From: Myxococcales bacterium
GTDB lineage: Bacteria; Myxococcota_A; Polyangia; Polyangiales; Polyangiaceae
NCBI GenBank assembly: GCA_903642325.1
Contig: CAHJWM010000001.1
Coordinates: 62,001 to 126,000 of the forward strand
DNA: 64,000 nt
Reading direction: 5' to 3'
A program made the translations under genes and the position numbers. Shown piece by piece: positions 29,132 to 62,002 of this stretch. The stretch's first letter is position 1. Each line of letters starts with the position of its first letter. Under the pieces are notes generated by a model that saw only the letters and a program-made list of their open reading frames with translations, did no database searches and was not told the origin of the DNA.

Positions 29132-29221
29132 GCCTGCCATCGCCGACTTTTGCCACAATCTTGTCGAGTACTTGGAATCGGGAACTCGGATGATAGACTG
29201 CCGACACTTGGAGGAACTCCC

Positions 29222-30205
29222 ATGTCCGACCCCGTGACGGCAGCCCGCGCTGCACGTGAAAATCTTGCTCGTGCTCTGGCTGGCTTACAGATGCCGGGTG
29301 TTCCGCCGCAACTGATGGCGGTGGCAGAGCCTGTCGCTCACGCGATGAGCGCGTTGCACCGAATCGAGGCGAGCCACGGAGCAGCCGTTGGTGAAGCGGG
29401 CCCAGCCGCATTGGCCGCCGCACGCCAAGCGCTATCGATTCTTCAAGCGGGCGCGGGCCAGCACCAAGCGGTCGATCAGGCATTAGAGGTGATCGCCAGC
29501 TCGCTGAGTATGATTCACGGCCTCGCCCAGCCGCCGGTGGTTTCGCCGTTTGCAGGCACCGTCGCCGGTGGGCCAGCGTACGCGCCCTCTTTCCCACAAC
29601 CGGCGGCTCAGCCTCCGCCGCCAGTGCCCGCGACGCCCTACGGGCAGCCCGCGTACGGACAGCCCGCGACGCCCTACGGACAGCCCGCGTACGGACAGCC
29701 CGCGCACGGACAGCCCGCGCCGCCCACCCAGGGGCAAGGCGCTTGGCCGCAAGCCGCCTCCGTCCATCCAGCACCCGCTCCGCCACCACCTCACGTCCCG
29801 CCAGCGGGCGCGGCGCTCGGAAGCTCCGCCGCGCAAGCGGCGCGCCCCGCGCCGCTTGCGCCGCCAGCGGGTTCGCTCCGTGTCGAAGCAGAGCTCGGCG
29901 CGCACAGCAGCACTAATTTCTATAAGGGTCTGAGCGGGAACGACGTCATCGACTCGGGCGGGATCTTCGTGTCCACGTATCAAATCCCCGAGATCGGACA
30001 AACACTGTCGATGCGGGTTTCGATGCCCGGAGGCTACGAGTTCGAGGCGGCTGGCATCGTGCGCTGGACGCGGGAAGCGCCTGACTCCGGATCGGACGGC
30101 CAGCCCGGCTACGGCGCGCAGTTCACGCAGATCTCGCCGGAAGGTCGGCAGCTCGTGTATCGCTACGTTCGCAATCGCGAGCCGCTGTTCCACGACGATC
30201 TGTGA
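29222..30205 (+). CDS. PilZ domain protein of the myxobacterial type with a Gln/Pro/Tyr-rich linker
   Basis: A 327-residue protein preceded by a strong ribosome site (GGAGG). Residues 1-110 are helical (ARAARENLARALAGLQ, ARQALSILQAG). Residues ~120-235 are Pro/Ala-rich, with a run of five-residue YGQPA units encoded by a 15-base tandem repeat. The C-terminal ~100 residues are PilZ-like: SSTNFYKGLSGNDVIDSGGIFVSTYQ and FEAAGIVRWTRE. The upstream RxxxR of c-di-GMP binding PilZ domains is not evident, so binding is uncertain. The stop overlaps the GTG of the next gene (GTGA), coupling it to the outer-membrane protein. Confidence 0.8.
   Translation: MSDPVTAARAARENLARALAGLQMPGVPPQLMAVAEPVAHAMSALHRIEASHGAAVGEAGPAALAAARQALSILQAGAGQHQAVDQALEVIASSLSMIHGLAQPPVVSPFAGTVAGGPAYAPSFPQPAAQPPPPVPATPYGQPAYGQPATPYGQPAYGQPAHGQPAPPTQGQGAWPQAASVHPAPAPPPPHVPPAGAALGSSAAQAARPAPLAPPAGSLRVEAELGAHSSTNFYKGLSGNDVIDSGGIFVSTYQIPEIGQTLSMRVSMPGGYEFEAAGIVRWTREAPDSGSDGQPGYGAQFTQISPEGRQLVYRYVRNREPLFHDDL
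29631..29720 (+). repeat. 15-base tandem repeat coding YGQPA units
   Basis: Repeats of TACGGACAGCCCGCG, with a few substitutions and one ACGCCC insertion, encode five copies of YGQPA/HGQPA inside the PilZ gene linker. Such coding repeats change length easily by slippage. Confidence 0.75.
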
Positions 30206-33150
30206 AGCTTGGGCGCCTCGTACGTCGGCTCGTGGGTGCCTGCGTCGGCTTGATCGGAACCTGGGCGCCGGTGGCTCGGGCCGGAGACCCCTACCTCGAG
30301 TGGTATACTCTCCAGACTCCGCATTTTCGTGTCCATTTCCACGGCGGCCTCGAAGACATCGCACAACGAACGGCGAGCAGCGCCGAATCTGTGTACGAGC
30401 GGCTCGTCCCGCAGCTCGGCTGGTCCCCCTCACAGGCGACGGAAATAGTCGTCACCGACGACACGGACTCGGCCAATGGCTCGGCGTCCACGCTGCCGTA
30501 CAACACCGTGCGCCTGTTCGCGACGGCGCCCGACGACATGTCGCCGCTCGGAGATTACGACAACTGGATCAACGAGCTCATCACCCACGAGTACACGCAT
30601 ATCCTCCAGATCGACAACACCTCGGGCCTGCCCGCGGTGGGCAATGCGCTGCTCGGTAAAACCTTCGCTCCCAATCAAGCGCAACCGCGCTGGATCCTCG
30701 AGGGCTTGGCCGTCGTAATGGAGTCGTCACACACCTCGGGTGGCCGGCTCAAATCCACGCAGTTCGACATGTATTTACGCGCGGACGTACTCGAGCACCG
30801 TCTCGCGCCCCTCGATCAGATCAGCAATCCGGCGCGTCGCTGGCCGGGCGGCAATCTCTGGTACTTGTACGGCGCCGAGTTCATCGGCTGGATCGTCGAC
30901 ACTTACGGACCCGACACGTTCGCCGCGGTCGCCGCTGACTATGGCGCGACGGTCATTCCCTGGGGCATCAATCGCTCCATACGACGCGTCACGGGGCGCA
31001 CGTACGAAGAGCTGTACCGCGGCTGGCAGACGTTTCTCGAGCGCAAGTACGGCGACCAAGAAAGAGCGGTGCGAGCGCGTGGGCTGCGCGAAGGGCGCCA
31101 GCTCACCCACCGCGGCTACGTCGCGGCCACTCCGCGTTTCATGCCGCCCTGCGCTGGCGCACGGCGTTTGGCCTACGAGCGCGATGACGGCAATACCACC
31201 GCGGGAGTGTACGCCATCGACACCGGCTCCCCCGACCCAGATGCCGGCGCGGAGCTCATCGCGCGCTCGAGCGGGCGCGGGCTCGGCTTTGGCCTGGACT
31301 GCTCGCTCTACTTCGATAATCCCGCGCCCTCGCGACGTTTTTACATGTTCAGCGATCTAGTGCGGCAGCCCGCCAGCACCCGCTCGCCTTCAGGGCTGGA
31401 ACGCAATCGTCAGCGCTTGACCGTCGGAGCGCGCGCCAGCGCGCCCGACGTCAGCCCAGATGGCCGCTTGATCACATATGTGACGAATCGCGCGGGAACG
31501 AGCACGCTCCGTATCGCCCGATTGACTCCACAACACGAGCTCGAGGCGGAGCGCGCGCTCGTGCCGAGCGCACAATACGAGCAAGCGTACACGCCACGTT
31601 TCTCGCCGGACGGCGAGCACGTGGCTTACAGCGCGTGGACGCGTGGTGGGTACCGTGACGTGCGCGTCGTGAACGTGCGCACCGGCGCCTTCTTCGAGCT
31701 CATGCACGATCGCGCGCTCGATCAGCAGCCAGTCTGGGCGCCCGACGGCAAGACGCTGTATTTCGTCTCCGACCGCACCGGCATCCCCAACGTCTTTGCT
31801 TACGAACTGGAGTCGCATGCGATCGAGCAGGTAACGAACGTGCTGATCGGCGCTTACATGCCTACGGTCTCGAATGACGGCCGTCGGTTGGTCTACGTGG
31901 GATACACGTCGACCGGCTTCGACCTATTCGAGCTGACGCTCGATCGCGATCTCTACTTGAAGGCGCCCGATGCGCTCGATGAGCGAGCGGAGGGCTTCGA
32001 GCCAAGCCTCAGCCATGCCTGGCCGGTCGGGACCTATAATCCTTTACCGACCTTGCGGCCTCGCGCTTATACCTTGGCGTATGGCTTAGGCACGTTCGGA
32101 GACACCCTGACGGTCAGCACCAGCGGCGCCGACGCCATCGGCCGTCACGCCTTCGATGCGGCATTGGCAATTCCCGTCAGCGGCCGAGGCGAGATCCAAG
32201 GCAACCTCGATTACTCTTATAATCGGCTGCCATTTTCATTTCGCGCGGGGTTATTTCGTTCCGCCTCGCCGCGCATGGACTATCGCTATGGGGATCTGAA
32301 CCCGCTCACGACCGAGCGCACCACCGGCGTCACGACGGGTATTTCGTGGGCGGCCCCGGGCGAGTTCGACGGGCAGAGCCTTTCGCTCAACTACACCATC
32401 GCGAATTACGGCCGCGATCTGCCGGTGGGAACACGCGGCGAACCCTACGCGCTCACTACGATCACTCCTGATCGCGGCTACCTCGGCCTAGTGCATTTGG
32501 GATACGGCTACAGCAATGCGCAGAGCACCACCTACGCCATCAGCAATGAAAAGGGCCTGACGCTCGGGGTCGGGCTCGACGAAGCCGCGCACGCGCTCGG
32601 CAGCGAGAGCACCTTGACCGCAATCGGCGGCGTGCTCACGGCATATGCCCGACTGCCTTGGGGGCAGCACCACGTGCTGGCACTCGGGTTGTCCGGCGGC
32701 ACCTCGCTCGGCAGCTACAGCAAGCGCGGTCTGTACAGCACCGGAGGCTTCGTGAACGCTTCCCTGTACGACGAATACAATAGCGTGGTCAGGCAGAGCG
32801 CGTTCGTGCTGCGAGGCTATGCGCCGGGCCAGTTCGTAGGTACGGCCTACAACTTGCTCAACGCCGAATACCGGTTTCCACTCCTGTACGCCGATCGCGG
32901 GCTCAGCACGCTGCCGGTCTTCCTGCGTACATTGAGTGGCATTTTTTTCTTTGACTACGGCGGCGCGTACAATCGAATCGATCCGGACCACCCATTCCGC
33001 ATGCTGCATGGCAGCCTCGGTGCCGAGCTCTGGGTCGAGGCCGTGACGGGCTACTTCGTCCAGAGCAATCTGCGCTTGGGGCTGGCTCGGGGCCTGGATC
33101 ATGAGGCGAACGGGGTTCAAACCTATGCGGTCTTGGTTGCTGGATTTTGA
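30202..33150 (+). CDS. Outer-membrane protein: HExxH peptidase, TolB-like propeller and C-terminal beta-barrel
   Basis: A 982-residue protein with a Sec signal peptide (MKLGRLVRR ... PVARA-GD). A gluzincin-type metallopeptidase domain holds H129-E-Y-T-H133 and Glu167 (WILEGLAVV, 33 residues later), the HExxH...E zinc site of M1-like clan MA proteases. Residues ~300-620 contain repeated WD40-like/PD40 blades (for example ASAPDVSPDGRLITYVTNRAG, RFSPDGEHVAYSAWT, PVWAPDGKTLYFVSDRTG), as in TolB. Residues ~640-982 look like an outer-membrane barrel of the surface-antigen/D15 type, ending in aromatic Phe (VLVAGF). The gene starts at a GTG overlapping the stop of the PilZ gene. Likely a surface or periplasmic protease anchored by its own barrel; substrate unknown. 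Confidence 0.82.
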   Translation: MKLGRLVRRLVGACVGLIGTWAPVARAGDPYLEWYTLQTPHFRVHFHGGLEDIAQRTASSAESVYERLVPQLGWSPSQATEIVVTDDTDSANGSASTLPYNTVRLFATAPDDMSPLGDYDNWINELITHEYTHILQIDNTSGLPAVGNALLGKTFAPNQAQPRWILEGLAVVMESSHTSGGRLKSTQFDMYLRADVLEHRLAPLDQISNPARRWPGGNLWYLYGAEFIGWIVDTYGPDTFAAVAADYGATVIPWGINRSIRRVTGRTYEELYRGWQTFLERKYGDQERAVRARGLREGRQLTHRGYVAATPRFMPPCAGARRLAYERDDGNTTAGVYAIDTGSPDPDAGAELIARSSGRGLGFGLDCSLYFDNPAPSRRFYMFSDLVRQPASTRSPSGLERNRQRLTVGARASAPDVSPDGRLITYVTNRAGTSTLRIARLTPQHELEAERALVPSAQYEQAYTPRFSPDGEHVAYSAWTRGGYRDVRVVNVRTGAFFELMHDRALDQQPVWAPDGKTLYFVSDRTGIPNVFAYELESHAIEQVTNVLIGAYMPTVSNDGRRLVYVGYTSTGFDLFELTLDRDLYLKAPDALDERAEGFEPSLSHAWPVGTYNPLPTLRPRAYTLAYGLGTFGDTLTVSTSGADAIGRHAFDAALAIPVSGRGEIQGNLDYSYNRLPFSFRAGLFRSASPRMDYRYGDLNPLTTERTTGVTTGISWAAPGEFDGQSLSLNYTIANYGRDLPVGTRGEPYALTTITPDRGYLGLVHLGYGYSNAQSTTYAISNEKGLTLGVGLDEAAHALGSESTLTAIGGVLTAYARLPWGQHHVLALGLSGGTSLGSYSKRGLYSTGGFVNASLYDEYNSVVRQSAFVLRGYAPGQFVGTAYNLLNAEYRFPLLYADRGLSTLPVFLRTLSGIFFFDYGGAYNRIDPDHPFRMLHGSLGAELWVEAVTGYFVQSNLRLGLARGLDHEANGVQTYAVLVAGF

Positions 33151-33236: not shown

Positions 33237-33725
33237 ATGGCACCCTCTCGCGGCCTCGGCTTCCTGATCCTTTCCGGCGTTCTCTCCCTTTCTGATTGCA
33301 TGATGCCTCCGCCGGCGTCCGAAAAGGCGACCGACGCGGCGCGCGAGCTGAACGTTGCCGCGCGCTTTGGGCGAATCGACGTTGCCGCCGGGCTCGCCGC
33401 GAGTGGGGCGCGAGAGGCATTCATTCTCCGGCGCGCAACTTGGGGCGGCGACATCCGCGTCGTGGACGTCGAGCTCGGGGGCCTGACCATGCCTGACTCA
33501 GCGCACGCCGTCTTCCAGGTCGACTATGCCTGGATACGCACGGACGAGGACACCTTGCGCAGCACACGGGTCGCCCAGCACTGGAGCTCGATCGGCGGCG
33601 CGTGGGCACTCGAGAGCGAAAAACGAGTCGCCGGCGACGTGGGTCTGTTCGGCGAGCACGTGGACGTGTTGCGGCCGCGCCAACATGACACTCAGTTTGC
33701 GACCAAGGTGATCCGCGAAGACTGA
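33237..33725 (+). CDS. Predicted lipoprotein, unknown function
   Basis: A 162-residue protein with a hydrophobic N-terminus (LGFLILSGVLSLSDC) ending in a cysteine in a lipobox-like but non-canonical context (SDC). The mature part has a probably alpha/beta core: RELNVAARFGRIDVAAGLA, FILRRATWGGDIRVVDVELGG, HAVFQVDYAWIRTDEDTLRSTRVAQHW. It resembles small conserved secreted proteins of this phylum by architecture only. It begins 86 bases after the outer-membrane protein stop on the same strand. Confidence 0.6.
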   Translation: MAPSRGLGFLILSGVLSLSDCMMPPPASEKATDAARELNVAARFGRIDVAAGLAASGAREAFILRRATWGGDIRVVDVELGGLTMPDSAHAVFQVDYAWIRTDEDTLRSTRVAQHWSSIGGAWALESEKRVAGDVGLFGEHVDVLRPRQHDTQFATKVIRED

Positions 33726-61931: not shown

Positions 61932-62002
61932 GCTGAGCGAGCCTAGCGCCAAATTTGCGCCTGAGAAGAGGTCACGTGCAGGGCGTCGGCTTATGGCCGT
62001 CG

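Follow-up and report, generated by a model that had tools for sequence, protein, structure and literature searches.

A predicted POTRA-less Omp85-type protein of a Myxococcales bacterium carries a conserved putative zinc peptidase and a TolB-like propeller

The closest described architecture is that of the WD40-Omp85 subfamily, which Heinz and Lithgow defined in 2014 as POTRA-less proteins with a propeller closest to TolB and read as a BamA-BamB-like fusion (PMC4104836). The 'Metallo' subfamily of the same study corresponds to PF00149, a different domain, and the main text of that paper makes no mention of a peptidase. Enzyme-Omp85 fusions are exemplified by PlpD, which has a POTRA domain and in which a patatin-like lipase domain precedes the Omp85 barrel and remains periplasmic (PMC11116518). 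At the outer membrane of E. coli, the M48 zinc metallopeptidase BepA targets LptD at the BAM machinery (PMC8423444); it is a separate soluble periplasmic protein of gluzincin type with neither barrel nor propeller (PMC8423444, PMC7950410). Here we analyse a gene in a 64,000-nt window (positions 62,001 to 126,000 of contig CAHJWM010000001.1, assembly GCA_903642325.1) whose product resembles the WD40-Omp85 proteins in its N-terminal TolB-like propeller, C-terminal Omp85 barrel and lack of POTRA, but differs from the subfamily as presented in that main text in having a complete and invariant gluzincin domain ahead of the propeller. It shares with PlpD the order of enzyme domain first and Omp85 barrel last, although the enzyme is here a putative zinc peptidase accompanied by a propeller rather than a lipase accompanied by POTRA. 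With BepA the likeness is a functional analogy only, as the window protein carries its own barrel and propeller and has no M48 match at cut-off, and with TolB it has only the propeller in common.

The gene occurs as a single full-length copy in its genome and has the following predicted features.

30202..33150, + strand: whole gene, GTG start, 982 aa; the end coordinate includes the stop
30202..30282, + strand: predicted Sec signal peptide, residues 1-27, with an AxA-type end VARA|GD; cleavage site placed by eye
30286..31080, + strand: gluzincin-fold peptidase domain, residues 29-293, from the model, structural matches and conservation
30586..30600, + strand: predicted zinc-binding motif HEYTH, residues 129-133; H, E and H invariant in 92/92 sequences
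30700..30702, + strand: Glu167 in WILEGLA, presumed third zinc ligand, invariant in 92/92
30862..30864, + strand: Tyr221, candidate transition-state-stabilising residue, Tyr in 92/92
31081..31953, + strand: TolB-like beta-propeller with PD40 repeats, residues 294-584, from profile and fold matches
31954..32052, + strand: linker, residues 585-617, from the model; no POTRA in Pfam scans
32053..33147, + strand: 16-stranded Omp85-type outer-membrane barrel, residues 618-982, with C-terminal Phe, from model, fold and profile
32809..32820, + strand: LRGY, residues 870-873, L6 motif of Omp85 proteins, located in the strand 11-12 loop

An AlphaFold2 model of the whole chain, built from an alignment of 64 sequences, has a mean pLDDT of 92.3 and a pTM of 0.90, with the signal-peptide region forming a low-confidence helix (residues 2-20). 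Together with domain prediction, the model bears out the proposal of a preliminary description of this DNA that an HExxH peptidase, a propeller and a barrel are joined in one chain. Export, an outer-membrane barrel, a gluzincin fold with an intact site and a propeller between the two are all strongly predicted.

That description had placed a gluzincin site at H129, E130, H133 and E167, and the translation has all four residues at these positions. We aligned the window protein with 91 homologues, down to ~27% identity, and found the four residues identical in all 92 sequences, with no homologue losing the zinc site, which rules out a chance HExxH motif; as the catalytic Glu is invariant in addition to the ligands, the conservation also favours an enzymatic over a structural role for the metal. 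D86, P110, E174, R182, Y221, G224 and P253 are likewise invariant, and the 33 residues separating H133 from E167 are kept in 89/92 sequences. Tyr221 lies 91 residues past Glu130 in 85/92 sequences, a distance which presumably resembles that of the catalytic Tyr in M1 enzymes and which we take as a lead only. Mean pairwise column identity in the same alignment is 0.43 in the peptidase, 0.36 in the propeller and 0.31 in the barrel, which makes the peptidase the best conserved domain. Modelled alone (pLDDT 92.6), it matches the structure of the M30 peptidase lugdulysin with a Z of 16.0 (rmsd 6.7, 239 residues aligned) and M1 and M9 peptidase structures with Z 13-14, at sequence identities of 10-16%, and M61 structures were also among the gluzincin-fold matches. 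The HExxH motif, the downstream Glu (92/92) and the fold are those of gluzincins (clan MA), in support of the original assignment. The domain therefore shares a fold with M30 lugdulysin, M1 aminopeptidases and M9 collagenases (Z 13-16) but has sequence membership in none of them. It falls in no Pfam family at cut-off: Peptidase_MA_2 (PF13485) was rejected at 19.1 bits against a gathering cut-off of 32.4, and M48 was rejected with no match for the window protein and weak matches for 4/46 homologues (best 0.0074). A profile of the domain found nothing significant among PDB sequences, the structural matches having come from folds only. With its zinc site unchanged in all relatives examined, the protein is probably a real, conserved enzyme held on the periplasmic side of the outer membrane. 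Outside the window, the same genome encodes a 962-aa protein (L155:2391-5279, minus strand) in which repeats appear to flank an HExxH...EG.A peptidase-like domain, and this is the genome's only other match, a weak one, to the peptidase profile. Related genomes encode large HExxH...E proteins of 1329 and 986 aa (L156:888-4874 and L157:2255-5212, both plus strand), for which Pfam gave no match up to E 0.05.

The central domain is the propeller of PD40 blades that had been anticipated. It matches the PD40 family (PF07676, E=3.6e-20) and, over residues 402-582, the TolB model TIGR02800 (E=5.7e-29), and residues 320-585 superpose on TolB structures with a Z of ~26 (rmsd 2.3-2.5, ~242 residues). Named matches in a viral structure library were for the most part propeller-type proteins, WD40 and kelch among them. 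We rejected membership in canonical TolB, as the score of 101 bits lies below the equivalog cut-off of 343, and all 46 homologues scanned likewise match TIGR02800 below its cut-off; another TolB-like gene is present in the genome.

For the barrel, a terminal Phe had been correctly noted, while the Omp85 identity and the missing POTRA had gone unrecognised. The model contains 16 barrel strands between residues 622 and 979, and residues 617-982 match BamA and TamA with Z 20-21 (rmsd ~3.5-4.5 over 282-314 residues). The terminal residue, F982, is F in 67 and Y in 13 of the 92 aligned sequences. At the strand 11-12 loop, the site of the L6 xRG[F/Y] motif in Omp85 proteins, 91/92 sequences keep an xRG[YF] motif. 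Pfam Omp85 (PF01103) is matched by 31 of 46 homologues (best 6.1e-11); the window protein itself has no PF01103 match and is absent from its own genome's Pfam Omp85 list, and a profile-profile comparison with five Omp85 barrels of that genome gave a probability of 97.6 (E 3.9e-12). That genome has 11 Omp85 matches besides the window protein, nine of them over the family cut-off. The linker of residues 585-617 occupies the place where Omp85 proteins usually have POTRA; the model shows nothing else there, and Pfam scans of 46 members found no POTRA. With a 16-strand BamA/TamA fold, the L6 motif and barrel sequence homology, the barrel is a POTRA-less Omp85 barrel of BamA/TamA type, and the proposal that the protein provides its own outer-membrane anchor is thereby supported as a prediction. 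Lacking POTRA, the protein is filed under Omp85 solely by the barrel-based definition of PMC4104836, and with its N-terminal propeller it has the architecture of the WD40-Omp85 subfamily.

This architecture raises the alternative that the protein is an assembly factor or scaffold of the Omp85 kind, its N-terminal part mainly binding proteins and its peptidase activity secondary or absent. The combination of TolB-like propeller and Omp85 barrel fits such a role, as does the BamA-BamB-like fusion hypothesis for WD40-Omp85 proteins (PMC4104836), but we regard it as unlikely, since the ligands, the catalytic Glu130 and Tyr221 are all invariant, the peptidase is conserved more than propeller or barrel, and the POTRA domain is absent.

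Some match to the protein was found in 57/59 near relatives and in 276/282 sampled genomes of the phylum, a figure we rejected as a measure of prevalence because many of the weak matches are probably TolB-type propellers alone. Strong matches (best E < 1e-25) number ~201/282 by hand count, and when 30 genomes, mostly with weak matches, were searched with the peptidase domain, four gave strong matches, all of them genomes with better first-pass matches. At the level of sequence, the family is widespread in the phylum yet missing or unrecognisable in several lineages, where its role may be dispensable or done otherwise. A relative labelled Sorangium sp., 56% identical, was the only one to come from a scan of genome contigs, and an orthologue was not identifiable in a study of M. 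xanthus outer-membrane proteins (PMC3222651).

Upstream of the gene lies a PilZ-domain gene (29150-30205, plus strand), which overlaps its start by four bases, and downstream a small ORF (33237-33725, plus strand). Their retention alongside the gene in close relatives only suggests a local operon, and with adjoining genes kept solely at that range we set the neighbourhood aside as a functional clue; no conserved neighbour pointing to a client was found across the phylum. Other phyla were sampled through plasmids, and here plasmid pSR116 of Salinibacter ruber encodes a relative (L118:3506-5404, plus strand), annotated as a basic secretory protein-like protein, with a colinear peptidase and PD40 propeller, an HExxH motif with downstream Glu and 24% identity to the window protein; it differs in being 633 aa long and lacking the barrel. 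In the open-access papers found, we saw no description of a protein that joins all three parts and keeps the zinc site invariant; part of the combination was already known from the propeller-Omp85 subfamily described in 2014 (PMC4104836). The peptidase-propeller front end is known on its own from S. ruber, and the propeller-barrel back end from the WD40-Omp85 proteins.

The barrel-less relative in another phylum indicates that the front end can be redeployed, and this soluble form, together with the single copy of the gene, would suit an enzyme dedicated to processing one or a few specific proteins of the envelope, for example lipoproteins or components of surface polymers, rather than to general quality control. 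With no conserved neighbour as a possible client, we think such a dedicated role quite improbable.

Which side of the membrane the peptidase faces had been left open. Two distant relatives of ~1500 aa (L153:1423-5931, minus strand, and L154:1922-6421, plus strand) have an OmpA-like domain inserted within their propeller, detected in L153 by Pfam (PF00691, 1.7e-21) and in L154 read by eye only. By BLAST, L153 runs colinear with the window protein through the peptidase and the propeller and, at weak similarity, into part of the barrel, its last propeller blade following the OmpA insert, and these relatives are only ~21% identical to the window protein over the aligned stretch. OmpA-type domains bind peptidoglycan, which would put the propeller of both relatives, and by extension that of the window protein, in the periplasm. 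Together with the periplasmic patatin domain of PlpD (PMC11116518), the insert favours by analogy a periplasmic over a surface peptidase, and a periplasmic location now has fair support.

Many myxobacteria are predators, the hosts of this family appear to be myxobacteria, and PlpD was reportedly once thought to export its enzyme domain; we know of no precedent for the passage of a folded or refolding propeller and peptidase through a 16-strand barrel. A surface protease, in which the Omp85 barrel would export both domains to the cell surface or the medium for the digestion of external proteins such as prey or matrix, could draw on such hosts and on the real translocases among Omp85/TpsB barrels (PMC4104836), but appears quite improbable given that distant relatives have an OmpA-like domain within the propeller, that PlpD keeps its patatin domain in the periplasm (PMC11116518) and that no precedent for such passage is known to us.

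The reading we prefer, to which we give about an even chance, is that of an outer-membrane-anchored zinc endopeptidase that faces the periplasm and serves quality control or maturation of envelope proteins. Sec export followed by insertion of the Omp85-type barrel into the outer membrane is strongly predicted, and there is fair support for the N-terminal peptidase and propeller remaining in the periplasm beneath the barrel. The propeller may then dock partners or substrates and hand them to the peptidase, which would cut proteins of the envelope, the likeliest targets being outer-membrane or periplasmic proteins in misassembled or precursor form. This mode of action would be BepA-like, except that propeller and barrel belong to the same chain as the peptidase; BepA has a TPR domain. 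As a zinc peptidase at an assembly machine, BepA is a precedent that counts in favour of the model, whereas the lack of a conserved neighbour pointing to a client, the apparent absence of the family from several lineages and the low identity of the OmpA-insert relatives count against it. We also entertain, as a rather unlikely extension, that the POTRA-less Omp85 barrel still inserts outer-membrane proteins and combines this with docking by the propeller and zinc-dependent proteolysis, in which case one polypeptide would do the combined work of BamA, BamB and BepA.

The protein adds a conserved putative protease to the Omp85 superfamily, in a POTRA-less form that is widespread in one bacterial phylum. 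If the peptidase is active, it would represent a further use of the Omp85 scaffold besides assembly and secretion, and would make outer-membrane proteolysis directly testable in myxobacteria, some of which are genetically tractable.
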